Below, in pieces: positions 5,644-19,436 of a stretch of 20,223 nucleotides of DNA. Origin of the DNA: a virus; the IMG/VR virus record IMGVR_UViG_3300046413_000500, positions 1-20,223 of that record; one strand, written 5' to 3'. Both the position numbers and the translations under genes were made by a program. Below the pieces are notes generated by a model, which was not told where the DNA came from, searched no databases, and saw nothing but the letters and a program-made list of their open reading frames with translations. Numbering within the stretch: the stretch's first letter is position 1; each line of letters begins with the position of its first letter.

Positions 5644-5666
5644 ATTATACAGTACATGCAATTAAA
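5644..5666 (-). promoter_or_regulatory. Phage promoter, TTTAAT-N11-TATAAT, for the phosphatase unit
   Basis: On the minus strand TATAAT lies at 5649-5644 with TTTAAT at 5666-5661. The upstream box overlaps the T-tract of the nadV terminator, so one unit ends where the next begins. Predicted transcript start is about 5637, about 14 bases before the ATG. Confidence 0.55.
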
Positions 5667-5684
5667 AAGGCCCGAAGGCCTTTT
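5661..5684 (-). terminator. Rho-independent terminator of the nadV unit
   Basis: On the minus strand AAAAGGCC, a TTCG loop and GGCCTTTT make an eight-pair stem with the very stable C(UUCG)G closure, running into T residues. It begins one base after the nadV stop codon. Confidence 0.85.
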
Positions 5685-5685
5685 C

Positions 5686-7086
5686 TTATGTGTTCGAGTT
5701 TGCGCGAACTTCGTCGAATGTAATCTCGTTATATAGTTTACCGTTACTAAATGTAGTCACAAGTGCCTCAGCCCAACCGCCAATGCCCTTATCGGTCCAA
5801 CCCGTAGGGGGATTTACACCTGATGCAAATTCACCACCAGAGTTAGTCCACAATGTTACTCGGCCAGCTTTTGATTTCTTACCAGAGTCGGTGATAGGAT
5901 CTTTCTGAACATCAATCCATTTGCCATCAATACAAGCACTAGAACATTTCATGGCAAACTTCTGTGTGTCACGGTTAATGCCTTGAAGTAATGCGCCACC
6001 CATACCGAATGCGATGTTATCAGCAGAGAAGTTCAATACTGTGAAGTGACCAAGGATGTTACGAATAACTCGTTCATTGATACCATCACCTTGAATCAAG
6101 CGAACATTGTTCAAGACTTTGTAACCTTTGTCATTGATTGTGAATCCGAATTTCTTAGCAAGGATTTGGACCAATTTGACGCATACGGCTTCAGGATCAC
6201 CAGAGTCGGGTCGGATAACCACCGTTGCACCGCTATTGATAACTTCTGCCTTGAGTTCGTCACCCCAGATATTTTCACCTGCGTTGAATACGTCATATGA
6301 ATCACTTACCACTGCGATTGTGGCTCCTTGCTTTGCGAATTGCTGCAGCATGTTTCGGTAGGCTTTGGACTCGTTTTCTCGTCCCCAACTTGTGATTGTG
6401 CTATGTTCGGCTGCTGGGATTGAGAATCCTGCGATTCCGGCGTTATAGTATTCACGAGCAAAAAGAATGCCACTAATAGTGTCTGAACCCATAAAGTTAA
6501 CGAGGTGGGCTGCTCCTCCAAGTCCTGCAGACTCGAGAGAAGATACGCCACGAGCGCCAAAGTCATGAAGTTTAAAGTTAATACCATTGATATCTCCGGT
6601 TCTTTCCAAGAAGCCCGCAATCACGTTCTTAATGGATTTTGATTGTGTTGCCACTGTTGTTGGGTACCATACTGCTCGAAGCAATGCAGTCTCCAAATAA
6701 GTGGTTAGCCAGAAACATTCAGGATCCGTGTTTTCAATAGTCGCCAATACGTTCTTAACAGGTACCACTGTGCCTTCAGGAACAGCCCGGATAACGACAG
6801 GAAGGTAACCTCCGTGCACCCGTAGAATGTACTCCCATCCTTGTCGGTTAAAGGGTTCTCCGTGAGCAGTGAGAATCTCGTCAGCAATATCAATGTCGGC
6901 TTGTGTGATAGGCTCAAGTAAATATTCCTTAATGAATGCTTGCAAACCGAAGAATACGGTTTCATCATAAACGCCACCACGTGACTCGATGTAACTATAC
7001 ACACCTGTTGTATTTGCTGGATATTGTTTGAACATAGACGTTTTGTATGAGTCAGTGTTCAATAGAATGTTCTTTGTTAGTTTCAT
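5686..7086 (-). CDS. nadV: Nicotinamide phosphoribosyltransferase
   Basis: A 466-residue Nampt enzyme that joins nicotinamide and PRPP to make NMN, the first step of the two-step NAD+ salvage route. Length is normal for the family. Recognisable parts: the N-terminal NTDSYKTSMFKQYP (10-23), HDFGARGVSSLESAG (174-188), MGSDT with Asp202 (human Asp219), AAEHST with the catalytic-type His228 (human His247), VSDSYDVFNA (260-269) and VIRPDSGDP with Arg292 and Asp294 (human Arg311 and Asp313). The gene has its own promoter (7117-7138), AAGGAG seven bases before the ATG, and a strong terminator. NMN is the substrate of the NadM-Nudix protein at 8599-9573. Phage Nampt-NMNAT pairs are known to restore NAD+ emptied by defence systems. 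Confidence 0.97.
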   Translation of the reverse strand: MKLTKNILLNTDSYKTSMFKQYPANTTGVYSYIESRGGVYDETVFFGLQAFIKEYLLEPITQADIDIADEILTAHGEPFNRQGWEYILRVHGGYLPVVIRAVPEGTVVPVKNVLATIENTDPECFWLTTYLETALLRAVWYPTTVATQSKSIKNVIAGFLERTGDINGINFKLHDFGARGVSSLESAGLGGAAHLVNFMGSDTISGILFAREYYNAGIAGFSIPAAEHSTITSWGRENESKAYRNMLQQFAKQGATIAVVSDSYDVFNAGENIWGDELKAEVINSGATVVIRPDSGDPEAVCVKLVQILAKKFGFTINDKGYKVLNNVRLIQGDGINERVIRNILGHFTVLNFSADNIAFGMGGALLQGINRDTQKFAMKCSSACIDGKWIDVQKDPITDSGKKSKAGRVTLWTNSGGEFASGVNPPTGWTDKGIGGWAEALVTTFSNGKLYNEITFDEVRANSNT

Positions 7087-7116
7087 GATAAACTCCTTAT
7101 CGTTTGTTGATGTTTT

Positions 7117-7138
7117 ATTATATACTAGTTTAATTAAA
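7117..7138 (-). promoter_or_regulatory. Phage promoter, TTTAAT-N10-TATAAT, for nadV
   Basis: On the minus strand TATAAT lies at 7122-7117 and TTTAAT at 7138-7133. Downstream, the leader contains ATCAAC and then AAGGAG before the nadV ATG. It separates nadV from the NadM unit, although no terminator is seen between them, so nadV may be read from both promoters. Confidence 0.6.
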
Positions 7139-7158: not shown

Positions 7159-7629
7159 TCAGGACTTAACTACTTCTTTAACTTCTTTGATTAGTTCGTC
7201 AAAGCTGTTAACTAAAGTAATACCGTATCGCTGGCACACAATTTCTACGTTACCTTTGCGCCAAAATCCATCTGGGCAGCACACAATAACATTATCTTTC
7301 TTTGCAAATAACCCTAGTTCCATCAAGGTAATCGGGCTCTTTGTACTTGGATCAAAATAGAATACCACCAAGTCGCTGTACTCAAGTGCATCTAATTCCC
7401 AATTAACTTGTTCATTGAACTGAGGGTTAGATGCCTCTTGCACCCAAGATGAATCCCAATCATCGCGTCGTGGATTCAAAAATCGTAAGTTGGTATCTTC
7501 AAATTCTTTAACCAATCGTTCTTGCCAATGTTCGGCAGTACCCATTTCGATACTGCCGCCCAAGAAGATATTGCAAGTCATCCAATCGGAATTTTTGTAA
7601 TATAGTTCTGGTGACTTGATGTGCTTCAT
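7159..7629 (-). CDS. Nucleoside 2-deoxyribosyltransferase-like protein
   Basis: A 156-residue protein of the nucleoside 2-deoxyribosyltransferase-like fold (Nuc_deoxyrib_tr2 type). The N-terminal strand-loop IFLGGSIEMGTAEHW (21-35), the middle FLNPRRDDWD (50-59), and YSDLVVFYFDPST followed by MELGLFA with the expected nucleophile Glu104 (84-109) all match. Family members cleave or exchange the N-glycosidic bond of nucleosides or nucleotides; the fold is also shared with ADP-ribosyl cyclases and TIR-like NAD-cleaving enzymes. The ATG at 7629 overlaps the stop of the radical SAM gene and has GGAG five bases upstream. The longer frame to 7749 lies inside that gene and was rejected. Lying between the two NAD salvage genes, it may act on a nicotinamide- or ADP-ribose-containing nucleotide, which is inference. 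Confidence 0.8.
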   Translation of the reverse strand: MKHIKSPELYYKNSDWMTCNIFLGGSIEMGTAEHWQERLVKEFEDTNLRFLNPRRDDWDSSWVQEASNPQFNEQVNWELDALEYSDLVVFYFDPSTKSPITLMELGLFAKKDNVIVCCPDGFWRKGNVEIVCQRYGITLVNSFDELIKEVKEVVKS

Positions 7630-8588
7630 GCTGTCTCCAAGTTCCACTCTTTTGGAGTGTGAATTTTTTGCATGCCGCAACCAACCGATGGTTTTACGTG
7701 TTCTGGATGATCTGCCATCCAATCTTGCACATACCATAGTTGGCCGCATCCACCACCAATTGTATCTTGGCCAGCAGGATCAAATACTCTTACATTATAA
7801 CCCTCATTTAGCAATTGGTTACCAAACTCTATTGCTAAATTGCGTTGATAATTATTTGTTGCTTCAGCATGGGCATCACGTTCACAGATAACTGAGACGG
7901 TTGCTTCCCAAATTCGTGGATGATATAGTTTCAACAAACGTTGAACATCTTCATCTTTATCGTTACCTTCGTGAGCGCAGTAATTGAAATACGGTTTACG
8001 ACCAGTTTCCAAATGCCAACGAACACCAACATCAGCGATTTCTTGGAGATTCAATTTCTTATCAAATGGAATCAACTTATCACGAGCTTCATCTGTACTT
8101 TCGTGAATGCTGAATTGCAAACCAACTGTTGGAATTCGTTTGCTCATTTCGATGATCCATTGATAGCTTACCTTAGGACCTGATGAACTAATTAGTAGAG
8201 CAGCATTTGGGTACTTCTCATAAAGAATATCGAATGCTTGTTCAAGGTTCTTGTTCAAAGCAGGTTCGCCCATAGACATAACCATGATTTGCAACTTCTT
8301 GATTGATTGTGGATGCAATCCATCAATCTGTGTTTCAAGAATATATTCTGCTTGTGCTACGATTTCATCGGCGGTAAGGCTTCGAACGAAGTAATCTCCA
8401 GTCCCGCAAAAGCGACAGCCCATAGGACAACCGCACATAGTACTAATACAAAGAACAGTACGTTCATCATAGGTTGGATAACGGTAAAGTACTGACTCAA
8501 TTGCGATGTCATCTTTCTCAAATACGTATTTTTTAACATGTTCTTTTTCGTCTTCAAAGACATTAATATTTTTCCATTGATGTTGCAT
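7626..8588 (-). CDS. RlmN-like radical SAM methyltransferase, short form
   Basis: A 320-residue radical SAM enzyme close to RlmN, which methylates C2 of A2503 in 23S rRNA and of A37 in some tRNAs. The cluster motif is CPMGCRFC, with Cys54, Cys58 and Cys61. Cys47 lies seven residues before the cluster, as Cys118 does in E. coli RlmN, and Cys281 in GGGCGQL matches the methyl-carrying Cys355. GEPALNK (107-113) is the SAM-binding GEP motif, and QFSIHESTDEARDKLIP (158-174) fits the family's LSLHAPNDEIR region. It lacks the N-terminal accessory domain of about 70 residues that contacts RNA. All catalytic cysteines are therefore kept while the usual RNA-binding part is missing. GGAG precedes the ATG. 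It sits in the NAD operon between NadM and the deoxyribosyltransferase. Target RNA unknown. Confidence 0.82.
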   Translation of the reverse strand: MQHQWKNINVFEDEKEHVKKYVFEKDDIAIESVLYRYPTYDERTVLCISTMCGCPMGCRFCGTGDYFVRSLTADEIVAQAEYILETQIDGLHPQSIKKLQIMVMSMGEPALNKNLEQAFDILYEKYPNAALLISSSGPKVSYQWIIEMSKRIPTVGLQFSIHESTDEARDKLIPFDKKLNLQEIADVGVRWHLETGRKPYFNYCAHEGNDKDEDVQRLLKLYHPRIWEATVSVICERDAHAEATNNYQRNLAIEFGNQLLNEGYNVRVFDPAGQDTIGGGCGQLWYVQDWMADHPEHVKPSVGCGMQKIHTPKEWNLETA

Positions 8589-8598
8589 AGTAAGCTCC

Positions 8599-9573
8599 TT
8601 ACAGTTTTGCGAAAGCGGGAATAGGCATTACACCTGTTACTTTTGAGATGATGTCTTTATGATCATCATACATTTCAATGTTATTCAAAGCGTCAGTTAG
8701 CGGAATCCATTTACAAAGTGCTGCATCATCTGCACCATTCGCACGAGGTAAAGAACCATCAGGATTAGGACTGATTCGCATGTACACAGCCATTGTATTT
8801 CGAGGAATACCAAATGAACGTGATGGATCATCAAACAATTCAGTCTTTACAATAGAACCGCGTAGAACCTTTTCTGGGACTCTTACATTTGTTTCTTCTT
8901 GTAATTCTCGGATTGCGCAGGATAGAAAAGTTTCACGTTGATTACGAAAGCCTCCTGGCAATGCCCAAGCACCTCGGCCTGGACTAAACTTGCGTTGGAT
9001 GAGGAGAACGTGACCTTGGCATTCGAGAATGGCATCACTACAGTTGAAGTTGAGTGTTTCTGGGAATGGGTAGTTTGCAAATAGTGCCGTCTCTTTCTTG
9101 TAGAATTCGTAATCACCCCTTACGGTTTCTGGCATGTCTGGATCATCTGTCTCAAACATACGTTTACGAATTGCTGTTGCGTTGATTTTGTATTCAGCTT
9201 CAATGCTTTTAAATCGCAGTTCTGGGAACCACTTTAAATAATCATTACCATCTTTTAAATGGCCGAACAAAATTGGTGATTCAATTTCGTAATGCTCAAT
9301 TGTTGAGCGTACATCTGACATCCATTGGGTGTCAGAATATTTGTAATCATTTAATGGGACGATTTCGAAGTTTGAAATTCGGTGCGCCCATAACTTTGAA
9401 CGAATCATATTTACTCGTTCTTGATATGTCCATGGGTTACGAATACTTCGGCATTGGTTAGCAGAACCAACGAAGATGTAGAGTTTGTCTACTTGGGAAG
9501 CAGCAATACCCAGCGCGTGGATATGCCCTTGGTGTATGGGCTGGAAACGCCCAATAAAGATACCATTTTTCAT
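8599..9573 (-). CDS. nadM: Bifunctional NMN adenylyltransferase / Nudix hydrolase
   Basis: A 324-residue two-domain protein. Residues 1-145 are a nucleotidyltransferase that joins NMN and ATP into NAD+: GRFQPIHQGH (8-17) carries the HxGH motif, and NATAIRKRMF (131-140) is the family's ISxTxxR-type motif. Residues about 175-324 are a Nudix domain with a complete box, GGFRNQRE, seven residues, then RELQEE (207-227), so it should be active, perhaps as an ADP-ribose pyrophosphatase. The same fusion occurs as NatV of T4-like vibriophages and in some bacteria. AAGGAG lies eight bases before the ATG and a promoter lies at 9626-9647. It completes NAD+ salvage begun by NadV, while the Nudix part may recycle ADP-ribose or hydrolyse it after NAD+ has been cleaved. 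Confidence 0.94.
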   Translation of the reverse strand: MKNGIFIGRFQPIHQGHIHALGIAASQVDKLYIFVGSANQCRSIRNPWTYQERVNMIRSKLWAHRISNFEIVPLNDYKYSDTQWMSDVRSTIEHYEIESPILFGHLKDGNDYLKWFPELRFKSIEAEYKINATAIRKRMFETDDPDMPETVRGDYEFYKKETALFANYPFPETLNFNCSDAILECQGHVLLIQRKFSPGRGAWALPGGFRNQRETFLSCAIRELQEETNVRVPEKVLRGSIVKTELFDDPSRSFGIPRNTMAVYMRISPNPDGSLPRANGADDAALCKWIPLTDALNNIEMYDDHKDIISKVTGVMPIPAFAKL

Positions 9574-9625
9574 TTTCTAAACTCCTTAGAAATATAACGA
9601 TAGACTGCCTACCGTTGATTTATTT

Positions 9626-9647
9626 ATTATAACACGATTTGATTAAT
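9626..9647 (-). promoter_or_regulatory. Phage promoter, ATTAAT-N10-TATAAT, for the NadM operon
   Basis: On the minus strand TATAAT is at 9631-9626, preceded by CGTGT, and ATTAAT at 9647-9642. The initially transcribed stretch contains ATCAAC as at 7117 and 11307. It starts the nadM, RlmN-like and deoxyribosyltransferase-like operon. Confidence 0.6.
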
Positions 9648-13237: not shown

Positions 13238-13410
13238 TGGCGGGCCTCTTGTCTTCCTTGTTCGATTAATTTAATTGCGTACTCTTTGTCTTTAGGAGTT
13301 TCATCAGCAAGCATTTTATTGATTGTATCACGAATTTTTACAGCCGCTGAAGGCTTTGACTTTTCGTATTTGAAACCAATTTTTACGTAGTCGTTTTCAG
13401 CGTGTACCAT
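13234..13410 (-). CDS. Small charged phage protein
   Basis: A 58-residue protein, starting MVHAENDYVKIGFKYEKSKP, mostly helical and charged afterwards (KIRDTINKMLADETPKDK). Not recognised. TAATG overlap with the macro-domain gene upstream and ATGA overlap with the membrane gene downstream support it. Confidence 0.6.
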   Translation of the reverse strand: MVHAENDYVKIGFKYEKSKPSAAVKIRDTINKMLADETPKDKEYAIKLIEQGRQEARQ

Positions 13411-13886
13411 TATTTGAACTCCACTAAAGTTACTGTACCGCCTTTTTTACCGACTTCATCGGCGAACCATTCAAGTAAGCCAATAATTTTTTGCGGATCA
13501 CCTTTTGCTAAACCCATTCCGATGTAGGGGAAACCAAATCGTCGACCGGGATAACAGAACAGAAGTTTTTGCAGAATCAGTTCAAATGCGGTGTATTCAA
13601 ATTCATCATCGCCTGTGCTCATTTTATATTGAGTATATGCATTAATGATATTAAAGCAATCGCTGTCAGTAAATACTACCTCATCTGTCCATGCACCGAG
13701 CTTAGTATAATCACCCCGCATAGTTTCGCTATCTGCGTTTGCAACGTGCGGGTATCGTTCGCGAATTTCTCGTGCAATACCACCACCCATTGTGTTGAAG
13801 CAATTGCATCCTTGAACGACGATATCAAAGTCGCCGTTCTCAGCCATGTCTAGTAAATTACCTTGTGCGTGTTTAAGCATTTTCAT
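13410..13886 (-). CDS. Macro-domain protein (ADP-ribose binding or hydrolysing)
   Basis: A 158-residue single macro domain. The ADP-ribose pocket is clear: GNLLDMAENGDFDIVVQGCN (9-28), then CFNTMGGGIARE (29-40) with the Asn and Gly-rich loop of the family, and the second loop FPYIGMGLAKGD (about 118-129). Closest in style to Poa1p/ADP-ribose-1''-phosphate phosphatases and to DarG-type deADP-ribosylases. It may remove ADP-ribose from nucleic acid or protein, or process the ADP-ribose phosphate left by tRNA splicing-type repair. Two possible ATGs (13886 and 13880) are close together. Confidence 0.88.
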   Translation of the reverse strand: MKMLKHAQGNLLDMAENGDFDIVVQGCNCFNTMGGGIAREIRERYPHVANADSETMRGDYTKLGAWTDEVVFTDSDCFNIINAYTQYKMSTGDDEFEYTAFELILQKLLFCYPGRRFGFPYIGMGLAKGDPQKIIGLLEWFADEVGKKGGTVTLVEFK

Positions 13887-14133: not shown

Positions 14134-14532
14134 TTATTTTACCAAATTTAGCAATTCGTCAATGTTGTACTGAAACCGGTTCTTCATTTTGACCAATGTT
14201 TCTTCCGGGACATTGTGAACATTACCAAAATCTCCTTGTGCAATGTACACAGACGGGACAATGCCGCGAGAAGAAGCAATCTCAAAATAAGGACGAAGTT
14301 CCTTAACTGTCGTGAATGTATTTGACACAACGACATTCATATCTTCATTAAGCCACTTGAGTGTCTCGTTTTGACACCATTTGTGAGCTGCTCCAATTTT
14401 AGAAATATCGAACTCATAGTTCGGACCCCAATATTGGTCGGTTTCTAGATGAATGTATGCCGGCTTCAGAGCCTTAGCAATTGTTGACTTACCTGACCCA
14501 GGCAAGCCACGAATTAAAATTAAGCGTGCCAT
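14134..14532 (-). CDS. P-loop kinase, polynucleotide-kinase-like
   Basis: A 132-residue AAA_33-type kinase. The Walker A loop is GLPGSGKST (9-17); HLETDQYW (28-35) fits the acceptor-side Asp of T4 polynucleotide kinase and its relatives, and VVVSNTFTT (67-75) is the strand with the Walker B-like role. It lacks the phosphatase domain of T4 Pnkp, but a metallophosphoesterase is encoded right upstream with a TAATG overlap. Together with the Rnl1-like ligase at 15799 it may heal and seal cleaved tRNA. Kinase of small molecules is an alternative. Confidence 0.78.
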   Translation of the reverse strand: MARLILIRGLPGSGKSTIAKALKPAYIHLETDQYWGPNYEFDISKIGAAHKWCQNETLKWLNEDMNVVVSNTFTTVKELRPYFEIASSRGIVPSVYIAQGDFGNVHNVPEETLVKMKNRFQYNIDELLNLVK

Positions 14533-15170
14533 TATTTCCCCATTGACTCAAGCAACATTTTCCATTTCTCTGACGGTGTAATTGTACTTTTGACCATTTC
14601 CTTCAAAAGTTCTTCATACCCTTTCGGATGATGGCCTCGGATGATTCCTTGTAAGGCCTTAGTTACCATTTCATTCAATGGGACTACAACTTGGCGTGTA
14701 GCATCCATTCCTACATCTAATGCTCGAGAACCCTCAAGTCCAGTTTTACCGCCATGCACATGGCCATGGAAGTGAACAGAACCTCTGTGCATTTGATCCC
14801 ACTCCATAATAGGATAGTGAAACATGATCACACGATTTCCGTCAACAGTAATATGTTTATACGGAGTAATTTCAACAAAGCAATCAGTGAACTCTTTTTG
14901 CTTGATGAGTTTAGTGTCATGATTGCCAACAATCAATGTCTTCGTGCCGTTACATCGATTCAATAATCGTGCAGCAGTCAAATGACTACAGAATGCAACA
15001 TCACCAAGAATGTATGTATGATCTTCAGGCTGAACGGTTTCATTCCACTCAAGGACGATCTTCTCATTCATGTACTCGACATTATTTTTAAAGCGTTCCC
15101 TTGACTCTGGGCAGAACTTCATAATGTTCTTGTGTCCGAAGTGGATGTCACTAGTAATAAAATCCCTCAT
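14532..15170 (-). CDS. Calcineurin-like metallophosphoesterase
   Basis: A 212-residue phosphoesterase with the full set of metal motifs: SDIHFGH (7-13), ILGDVAF (about 54-60), VGNHD (about 80-84), a His in FHYP (about 117-120) and HGHVHGG (about 134-140). Phages often carry this type beside nucleic-acid repair genes. It may act as a 2',3'-cyclic phosphodiesterase/phosphatase that prepares RNA ends for the adjacent kinase and ligase, taking the place of the phosphatase domain of T4 Pnkp; this is inference. The C-terminal 70 residues are less conserved. Confidence 0.88.
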   Translation of the reverse strand: MRDFITSDIHFGHKNIMKFCPESRERFKNNVEYMNEKIVLEWNETVQPEDHTYILGDVAFCSHLTAARLLNRCNGTKTLIVGNHDTKLIKQKEFTDCFVEITPYKHITVDGNRVIMFHYPIMEWDQMHRGSVHFHGHVHGGKTGLEGSRALDVGMDATRQVVVPLNEMVTKALQGIIRGHHPKGYEELLKEMVKSTITPSEKWKMLLESMGK

Positions 15171-15340
15171 GGGTTTTCCTTATATTCTTTAATTTGTTCT
15201 GGTGTCAGTGCCAGAACTTTTGTGATTAATTCTTGATCGGCTTCTTTAGCACCGTCAAATGTAATGAGGGCTTCTTTACCTTCATAGAGAGTTGCTTGGT
15301 CTTCACTGATTAGTACCAAACGAGTTTTATTTTTATCCAT
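15167..15340 (-). CDS. Small phage protein, unknown
   Basis: A 57-residue protein (MDKNKTRLVLISEDQATLYE at the start) with a strand-strand-helix pattern, ending LTPEQIKEYKENP. An ATG nine bases further up (15349) is an alternative start. It overlaps the upstream gene by eight bases and the phosphoesterase gene by ATGA. Not recognised. Confidence 0.55.
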   Translation of the reverse strand: MDKNKTRLVLISEDQATLYEGKEALITFDGAKEADQELITKVLALTPEQIKEYKENP

Positions 15341-15542
15341 GATATTCATCTCTCAAAATTTCAATTGTTTCATTTAGTTGCTCAATCTCATGAGCAGCTT
15401 CATCCAATAGATTAGCAATTTTATCAGGTTTTCCTTCTATTACGGCTAATCGTCCAGGAATTTGTCTACGAATTTCAGCTCGTTTACGCAGGCGAAAGAC
15501 TAAACTTTGTTCAGCTACTGGCAGATGTGATTCATCAATCAT
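15333..15542 (-). CDS. Small phage protein of a recurrent type
   Basis: A 69-residue helical protein. The stretch RLRKRAEIRRQIPGR (17-31), followed by EGKPDKIANLLDEAAHEIEQ, is a pattern seen in many short phage proteins of unknown function. Likely a helical hairpin or coiled coil. Start overlaps the stop of 15539-15799 as ATGA. Confidence 0.7.
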   Translation of the reverse strand: MIDESHLPVAEQSLVFRLRKRAEIRRQIPGRLAVIEGKPDKIANLLDEAAHEIEQLNETIEILRDEYHG

Positions 15543-15799
15543 TTCATTTCCTCCGATTGATATGTGTACATTTTAAACGCGATCAACTTAAAGAAAATCA
15601 AACCTTTACAGGTATGCCCATCATAGTATGAATTTTCAATTCCAAACCACTTATCAGCCAATCCAAAGCCAATAGACCATTCTTCCCAGATGTGCCAGGG
15701 TTTGTTCTCAAAATATTCGTTCAACCAAATATCATACTTCATCTTGTACACGAAGTACAATTTGTTGTAATAAACATAAAAGCGTTTAGGTTTTTGCAT
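15539..15799 (-). CDS. Aromatic-rich small phage protein
   Basis: An 86-residue protein unusually rich in Tyr, Trp and Phe (YVYYNKLYFVYKMKYDIW, 8-25; HIWEEWSIGFGLADKWFG, 36-53). No family recognised. TAATG overlap with the RNA ligase gene upstream places it in the RNA-repair run. Confidence 0.6.
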   Translation of the reverse strand: MQKPKRFYVYYNKLYFVYKMKYDIWLNEYFENKPWHIWEEWSIGFGLADKWFGIENSYYDGHTCKGLIFFKLIAFKMYTYQSEEMK

Positions 15800-16671
15800 T
15801 ATTTCTCCAAGAACTCGCTAACCCACGTTAGTCGGGTTTGTTCATCCATAGCAGTGTACTCTTCAATGTTTGCCTGAATTGCATCAATCAATGGATAGTA
15901 TTCTTCATCAATACTATTTTTGATATCAGCACGCATCAGTTTATCAGTGCGCGGATTGCGAGCAACAAACTTCTTAACCAAGTAATATGGTGACTTAATC
16001 TTTGTCGCAATTTTACCAGGACCGTAAATTACAAATCCTTCGTGCTTAACATGTTTAGCTAGGATTTCAATGTATTCCATTGGTGCATATACAACTGGCA
16101 CATATTTAGCATTAAATTCTGTGCAGTCAAATAACTTTGTTGTGATATATGCTCCAAGTGTTTTATGGCGAGCACCTAACAAGTACATGCCTTCTTCTTC
16201 AGGAATGATATGTGGATCATTTCTATGTACACACTCAAACATAAATGTGTAATGTGAATTCTCAGAACATGTTTCACGATAACGTTGCAGATCTGGTTCA
16301 ATTAATTCTTTTGCCATTTTCACGTAGTCAGAATCAATAGATCCAGTTGTTGATACTAGGATATCTCCTTTGTACCAAGTCACCGCAACCATGAAGCCAT
16401 TTACTTTACGGTGAGCTTCAACTATTTCATCAGGGTGAATAATTGGTGCATTCTTCTCAACACCGTAATTGTAAATCTTTGTAAATGGATATGACACAAT
16501 GTTGAATTCATCATCAACAATTAGTCCACGGCATTCTTCCAAGTATTCATTCCAAAGTCCATCATAGAATACTTTGCGCTTGTACTTTAATACGTGCAAC
16601 CCATTTCCGCAATCCTTCATCTGAACAAGATTGCTTGTTTGCACATATTCCTTCAATTCATCTAAAGTCAT
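15799..16671 (-). CDS. RNA ligase, T4 Rnl1-like
   Basis: A 290-residue ATP-dependent RNA ligase resembling T4 RnlA. Motif I is HRKVNG with nucleophile Lys89; CRGLIVDD (47-54) matches the conserved arginine segment before it; YTFMFECVH fits motif III/IIIa, EGFVIY motif IV and ATKIKSPYYL motif V. T4 Rnl1 has 374 residues; this one is shorter, mostly at the C-terminus where T4 carries its tRNA-specific domain, so specificity may differ. T4 Rnl1 with Pnkp repairs tRNA cut by anticodon nucleases such as PrrC. Its start lies one base beyond the preceding gene's stop. Confidence 0.85.
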   Translation of the reverse strand: MTLDELKEYVQTSNLVQMKDCGNGLHVLKYKRKVFYDGLWNEYLEECRGLIVDDEFNIVSYPFTKIYNYGVEKNAPIIHPDEIVEAHRKVNGFMVAVTWYKGDILVSTTGSIDSDYVKMAKELIEPDLQRYRETCSENSHYTFMFECVHRNDPHIIPEEEGMYLLGARHKTLGAYITTKLFDCTEFNAKYVPVVYAPMEYIEILAKHVKHEGFVIYGPGKIATKIKSPYYLVKKFVARNPRTDKLMRADIKNSIDEEYYPLIDAIQANIEEYTAMDEQTRLTWVSEFLEK

Positions 16672-19359: not shown

Positions 19360-19436
19360 TGGTGCGCCTGACAGGAATCGAACCTGCTACAATCTGGTTT
19401 AGAATCAGTTGCCCTTACCTTATGGGCCTCAAGCGC
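19360..19436 (-). tRNA. tRNA with CUA anticodon (candidate amber suppressor)
   Basis: A 77-base class I tRNA with encoded CCA. Acceptor GCGCTTG/CAGGCGC, D-stem GCCC/GGGC, T-arm GCAGG-TTCGATT-CCTGT, variable loop of five, discriminator A. The anticodon region is ACTGA-TTCTAAA-CCAGA: three inner pairs (CTG/CAG) hold, the outer A27-A43 and the loop-closing A31-C39 do not. Standard numbering gives U33, C34-U35-A36, A37, A38, that is CUA, complementary to UAG. It begins three bases after the SGNH hydrolase stop. The amino acid carried cannot be read from the sequence. Confidence 0.8.

Follow-up and report, generated by a model that had tools for sequence, protein, structure and literature searches.

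Bacterial immunity against phages often ends in depletion of nicotinamide adenine dinucleotide (NAD+). Here we describe a 20,223-base virus fragment (IMG/VR record IMGVR_UViG_3300046413_000500, henceforth the window) in which large-phage genes for NAD+ salvage flank two further genes, one for a deoxyribosyltransferase-like protein (NDTL) and one for an RlmN/Cfr-like radical S-adenosylmethionine (SAM) protein. Because both kinds of gene recur beside NAD+-rebuilding genes in unrelated phages, at least one of the extra enzymes probably has immune signals or products of NAD breakdown as its substrates. We read the locus as a phage operon that reconstitutes NAD+ by a NARP2-type route and carries accessory enzymes for NAD or ADP-ribose; in it, NDTL would act as a ribosyl glycosidase and the radical-SAM protein as a recruited adenine methyl synthase, and we give this reading about an even chance of being right.

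The salvage enzymes are the nicotinamide phosphoribosyltransferase NadV and, encoded in the same operon, a nicotinamide mononucleotide (NMN) adenylyltransferase fused to a Nudix domain (NadM-Nudix). The selectivity clamp of Namat is formed by F392 and Y396 (PMC12774641), and we read our alignment as placing one NadV pentapeptide at the equivalent of F392-Y396. This pentapeptide is ALLQG in the window, ALLQQ or GLLQQ in Nampt-type and FTYQY or YTYQY in Namat-type enzymes, in a motif classification that leaves some NAMPT proteins beyond typing by regular expression. By this motif test, the window's NadV has a pocket of the Nampt (phosphoribosyl pyrophosphate, PRPP) type without the aromatic clamp. 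NadM-Nudix carries a GRFQPIHQGH motif and matches NCBIfam PRK05379 (E 3.2e-69, under the curated cut-off). Because NadV has a Nampt-type pocket and is accompanied by NadM-Nudix, we assign the set, from sequence, to NARP2-type salvage by the NadV-NadM route. A preliminary description of this DNA had named NadV and NadM as an established NAD+-rebuilding pair and had placed the two middle genes outside it; our analysis supports both points, the pair representing the NARP2-type form of a route previously described in phages. Phage KVP40 has the same two enzymes, a Nampt-type NadV and a fused NadM-Nudix, in adjacent genes, whereas the window has two extra genes between nadM and nadV and a macro-domain gene nearby. 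NARP1 (Adps plus Namat), which is also accompanied by NDTL and macro genes and also occurs in chromosomes, was rejected as an identity for the window, since the NadV clamp residues are not aromatic and there is no Adps gene: no PRPP-synthetase-like open reading frame was found in the 20-kb window.

Linkage was assessed in scans that kept the best 80 matches each, so that all rates describe close homologues only. Partners were counted within 5 kb in loci dereplicated at 90% and with full flanks, and loci anchored on the window's RNA ligase (n=20) served as control. A NAMPT gene lay near 18 of 43 NDTL-anchored loci and 14 of 46 radical-SAM-anchored loci, compared with 1/20 control loci (Fisher p 0.002 and 0.02, respectively). 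Conversely, NDTL was found near 17/38 Namat-anchored (NARP1) loci (control 1/20; Fisher p 0.001), and a macro gene near 10/38 (control 0/20). When the neighbours in dereplicated loci were clustered without labels, the NAMPT family emerged as the commonest beside both NDTL (21/56) and the radical-SAM gene (19/67), in every case on the same strand (21/21 and 19/19). We rejected the idea that the linkage belongs to one phage lineage, as the linkage label needs at least 14 changes on the NDTL protein tree and at least eight on that of the radical-SAM protein. The test for co-occurrence in unrelated phages that the preliminary description had proposed is positive by 5-kb linkage.

Among IMG/VR relatives, NadM-Nudix, radical SAM, in part macro, NDTL and nadV cluster in varying order. 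The macro gene stands outside the four-gene block in the window, whereas in most relatives it lies inside the cluster, often adjoining NDTL. Most relatives (L002-L010) encode a NadM-Nudix only about 30% identical to that of the window, whereas their radical-SAM proteins are 83-94% identical; the adenylyltransferase was therefore replaced while the cluster was kept. Loci anchored on close NadV relatives contained NadM-Nudix in 33/33, macro in 15/33, NDTL in 4/33 and radical SAM in 3/33 cases. The neighbours are thus variable, though drawn from a limited pool. Second in frequency beside NadV is a gene for an AAA+ ATPase (32/59 loci, e.g., L238:9519-10610). Vibrio phage 166E36-1 (L018:2121-6924) holds a NARP1-like set (Adps-like and a Namat with a YSYQY clamp) close together with macro and radical-SAM genes, and Xanthomonas phage X1 (L022:5950-6881) has a tandem pair of NDTL genes, the second one diverged.

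The association extends to bacterial chromosomes. In the best 80 bacterial NDTL loci (L408-L487), mostly from Bacteroidota such as Aquimarina, an NrtR-type Nudix-winged-helix regulator and an Adps-like gene lay near NDTL in 37, and a Namat-type gene in 27; neighbours confirmed by Pfam were NrtR_WHD, NADAR, ADP_ribosyl_GH, KptA, Macro, PARG and SLOG. Bacteroidota islands ordered NrtR-Adps-NDTL-NADAR/ADP-ribosylglycohydrolase/KptA/macro/PARG-Namat (e.g., L461:4383-7913, L459 and L464) look, from their gene content, like ADP-ribose recycling loci. Chromosomal NARP1 is already known (PMC12774641); we found no description in the literature of NDTL as its partner. The suggested tie of NDTL to NAD+ chemistry therefore holds well beyond the window phage, in NARP1 phages as well as bacterial chromosomes. 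Domain fusions were also observed: in Tunturiibacter phage Tunturi_5 (L489:3953-7741), NDTL makes up the N-terminal domain of a 1262-aa protein that also contains an ART-PolyVal ADP-ribosyltransferase domain and is encoded next to the portal gene, and in L435:2961-3908 a PF15891 domain is joined to a LuxR-type helix-turn-helix, possibly as a nucleotide-sensing regulator.

NDTL scores 126 bits against PF15891 (Nuc_deoxyri_tr2; cut-off 30) and 20.5 bits against PF05014 (nucleoside 2'-deoxyribosyltransferase, NDT), below the cut-off of 28.8. Its structure model, with a predicted local distance difference test (pLDDT) score of 95, matches 4mcj (VIA Z 20.6), YtoQ (13.6), the cytidine monophosphate (CMP) N-glycosidase MilB (12.2) and human DNPH1 (12.1), and a TIR domain (4lzp) weakly in Foldseek (E 0.12). 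The kinship with ADP-ribosyl cyclase/TIR chemistry put forward in the preliminary description is a tentative one, this weak TIR match being what the fold comparison gave for it. Aligned to MilB and DNPH1 over 131-134 residues at about 15% identity, it keeps the catalytic Glu in position. This nucleophile is Glu104, as given earlier, when counted from Met 7629, and it is invariant in 72/72 homologues. The active-site Tyr of PF05014 enzymes is Phe in NDTL (72/72), with the Glu retained. At the position that switches between ribose and deoxyribose, Phe (Phe22 in NDTL) stands in 72/72 phage sequences and in 76/80 bacterial ones; by the range offsets of the structure alignment, Phe22 aligns with MilB F17 and DNPH1 Y24, in agreement with the FL(G/A)G motif. 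NDTs and DNPH1, which are deoxyribose-specific, have Tyr at this position and TIR NADases Phe or Ala (PMC11204291), while F17Y switches MilB from CMP to dCMP (PMC4081090, PMC10603095). Because Phe22 stands where deoxyribose-specific enzymes have Tyr, NDTL is predicted to act on ribosyl rather than deoxyribosyl substrates. The name deoxyribosyltransferase-like hence fits the fold and the nucleophile but is probably wrong as to substrate. Where MilB contacts the 5'-phosphate with Arg23, in the FL(G/A)G-x-x-R motif, NDTL has Glu28 (E in 65/72), and it carries additional conserved NPRRxxWDxxW and RKGN motifs; Glu28 together with NPRR, WDxxW and RKGN suggests a substrate larger than a monophosphate. 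Kinship with RyDEP, a phage glycosidase of the RyR fold, was rejected: NDTL has no PF02026 (RyR) match, and its model is an NDT-type Rossmannoid.

The radical-SAM protein shares its fold, [4Fe-4S] cysteines, both catalytic cysteines and the GEP and CGQL motifs with RlmN and Cfr. In alignment to Cfr, the CxxxCxxC cluster corresponds to Cys54/58/61, and the two catalytic cysteines have their counterparts in Cys47 and Cys281; all are invariant in 55/55 homologues. An AlphaFold model (pLDDT 90) matches RlmN (6fz6, 3rfa, 5hr6) and Cfr (9p0p). Unlike these enzymes, the protein has a 35-residue C-terminal tail and falls far under the family cut-offs: its match to TIGR00048 (E 1.3e-30) scores 106.5 bits against a cut-off of 290 and starts only at profile position 70, the RlmN N-terminal accessory domain being absent. 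Methylation of an adenine, in RNA or in a small nucleotide, should be within its reach.

Table 1. Coordinates of the NAD locus and associated signals in the window.
Feature	Position	Strand	Details
Candidate promoter element upstream of nadMN	9623-9631	-	TATAATAAA, exact match
NadM-Nudix	8599-9573	-	324 aa; Pfam CTP_transf_like (E 8.8e-13) and NUDIX (E 1.4e-17); phrog_395
RlmN/Cfr-like radical-SAM protein	7626-8588	-	320 aa; PF04055 (E 7.8e-9)
ATGA overlap, radical-SAM stop and NDTL start	7626-7629	-	read in the sequence
NDTL (PF15891 deoxyribosyltransferase-like)	7159-7629	-	156 aa; PF15891 (E 9.5e-37)
Candidate promoter element upstream of nadV	7114-7122	-	TATAATAAA, exact match
nadV (nicotinamide phosphoribosyltransferase)	5686-7086	-	466 aa; NAMPT_N (PF18127) and NAPRTase (PF04095); NCBIfam PRK09198 (E 1.4e-191)
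Candidate terminator, GC-rich hairpin directly 3' of the nadV stop	5665-5684	-	near-perfect palindrome AAAAGGCC..GGCCTTTT, listed on + strand
Macro-domain gene	13410-13886	-	phrog_335 (E 2.9e-35); Pfam Macro (E 0.02, under cut-off)

The four genes are present in the arrangement first described, all on one strand, and the reported ATGA coupling is seen in the overlap of the radical-SAM stop with the NDTL start (Table 1); the interval originally marked, 7159-9631, leaves out nadV and the macro-domain gene. The claim that nadMN and nadV each have a promoter is plausible in that identical TATAATAAA elements precede both; a consensus scan was uninformative, promoter-like sites being no more frequent than in shuffles. 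As had been stated, the gap between NDTL and nadV holds no terminator-like hairpin. Near the NAD genes, a P-loop kinase, a calcineurin-like phosphoesterase and a T4 Rnl1-like RNA ligase form an RNA-repair-like group (14134-16671, minus strand). Elsewhere, the window encodes a tRNA with a CUA anticodon, labelled Pyl (19360-19436, minus strand), and 45 called genes of its minus strand end in TAA (27), TGA (18) and TAG (0), for which amber suppression or reassignment, or avoidance of TAG, are possible explanations.

From the observed genes, layout, fold, conserved catalytic residues and recurrent linkage, we infer enzyme activities, a preference for ribose and a role in anti-defence as follows. 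NadV would convert nicotinamide to NMN and NadM would convert NMN to NAD+, while the Nudix domain could split ADP-ribose or NAD+. NDTL would be a retaining glycosidase acting on an NAD+-derived ribosyl nucleotide, in which Glu104 would attack C1'' of the ribose. The leaving group would be a base or, in an ADP-ribose signal or adduct that is cyclic or conjugated, its alcohol, and water would then free ADP-ribose or ribose phosphate. The product could re-enter NAD+ synthesis through the Nudix domain and PRPP in NARP2, or directly through Adps-Namat in NARP1. For the radical-SAM protein, we propose a class-A adenine methyl synthase of the RlmN/Cfr type that was co-opted into the NAD setting. The enzymes that commonly accompany NDTL (Adps-Namat, NadV-NadM-Nudix, macro, NADAR and glycohydrolases) are all concerned with making, freeing or reusing ADP-ribose or nicotinamide. 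In its simplest role, NDTL would be a glycosidase that cleaves a cyclic signal or an adduct to set ADP-ribose free, in anti-defence or recycling. There is a precedent in RyDEP, a glycosidase within a NARP1 operon that supplies ADP-ribose to NAD+ synthesis (PMC13232231).

Several observations weigh against this reading. Among the loci of close NadV relatives, the precise set of four genes is just one variant, and a NAMPT gene is missing from the surrounding 5 kb in some 58% of NDTL and 70% of radical-SAM loci. A NAMPT gene occurs in 13/14 named NDTL phages but also in 7/10 RNA-ligase control phages; genome-wide co-occurrence does not discriminate and was dropped as proof because control phages carry NAMPT too, and the excess among non-adjacent IMG/VR contigs (12/20 with NAMPT versus 5/14 controls) is weak. 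The close fold matches of NDTL include no ADP-ribose enzyme, and the nearest characterised folds act on nucleoside monophosphates. NDTL might accordingly be an ordinary MilB- or DNPH1-like hydrolase or pool sanitiser of (deoxy)nucleoside monophosphates, with NAD neighbours that reflect the grouping of nucleotide genes in large phages. MilB, DNPH1 and NDTs are its closest characterised folds, DmtZ, a phage NDT relative, acts on dAMP (PMC12884076), and NAD genes are absent from the vicinity of many NDTL loci. Yet the enrichment is specific to NAD genes and recurs with NARP1, NARP2 and bacterial NrtR-Adps islands, Phe22 speaks against deoxyribose, and MilB Arg23 is replaced by a nearly invariant Glu; we consider this account unlikely, if a serious contender. 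Hydrolysis or base exchange of NMN or NAD+ by NDTL, yielding nicotinamide and ribose phosphate for PRPP and so tuning the pathway, would suit the predicted ribose preference, the substrates of NadV (nicotinamide and PRPP) and the release of ribose 5-phosphate by MilB-type enzymes (PMC4081090). Such cleavage would, however, oppose NAD+ rebuilding, and PRPP feeding leaves the NARP1 linkage unexplained because Namat is specific for ADP-ribose pyrophosphate (PMC12774641), which makes tuning decidedly improbable. An invariant nucleophile would be unexpected in a pure sponge, and we see a slim chance that NDTL is a non-enzymatic binding sponge or sensor, even though most RyDEP homologues tested bind without cleavage (PMC13232231) and the PF15891-LuxR fusion suggests ligand sensing.

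For the radical-SAM gene, the case is evenly poised as to whether it encodes an RNA methyltransferase, acting on an adenine of tRNA or rRNA, that rides along without a direct NAD+ role and perhaps shields tRNA or ribosomes against attack by the host. The RlmN/Cfr fold and both catalytic cysteines are in keeping with this, and in Stenotrophomonas phage ANB28 the gene sits among tRNA genes in a genome without a NAMPT gene. On the other hand, its only strongly recurrent neighbours are NAD genes (19/67), a linkage gained or lost at least eight times on the tree, and the protein has no RlmN N-terminal domain. A very long shot is a chemically marked NAD pool. Here the RlmN-like enzyme, no longer bound by an N-terminal domain for RNA recognition, would methylate adenine in NAD+, in ADP-ribose or in an immune signal, and NDTL would remove host ADP-ribose signals, which would let phage NAD+ or products made from it evade the NADases or sensors of the host.

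Two large surveys of NAD systems in viruses (PMC9503650, PMC7824862) do not mention RlmN-like or deoxyribosyltransferase genes in an NAD role, and we found no literature description of a PF15891 or RlmN-like gene in NAD reconstitution loci, the supplementary gene maps of the Nature 2024 NARP paper being outside this comparison. No described pathway explains why a radical-SAM methyl synthase without its usual N-terminal domain recurs beside NAD+ salvage genes. Phages rebuild NAD+, and a recent preprint reports that a glycosidase of the same operon cuts an immune signal back to ADP-ribose (PMC13232231). That enzyme, RyDEP of mycobacteriophage DyoEdafos, is likewise encoded among NAD+ reconstitution genes, in a NARP1 operon, with ADP-ribose as predicted product; it is a RyR Repeat12 protein (PF02026) with inverting His/Asp, whereas NDTL has a Rossmannoid NDT fold with a Glu nucleophile, and the two folds are unrelated. 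If our reading is true, NDTL would represent a second, unrelated and widespread class of ADP-ribose-freeing enzymes, linked with NARP1 and NARP2 alike and with the ADP-ribose islands of bacterial chromosomes.

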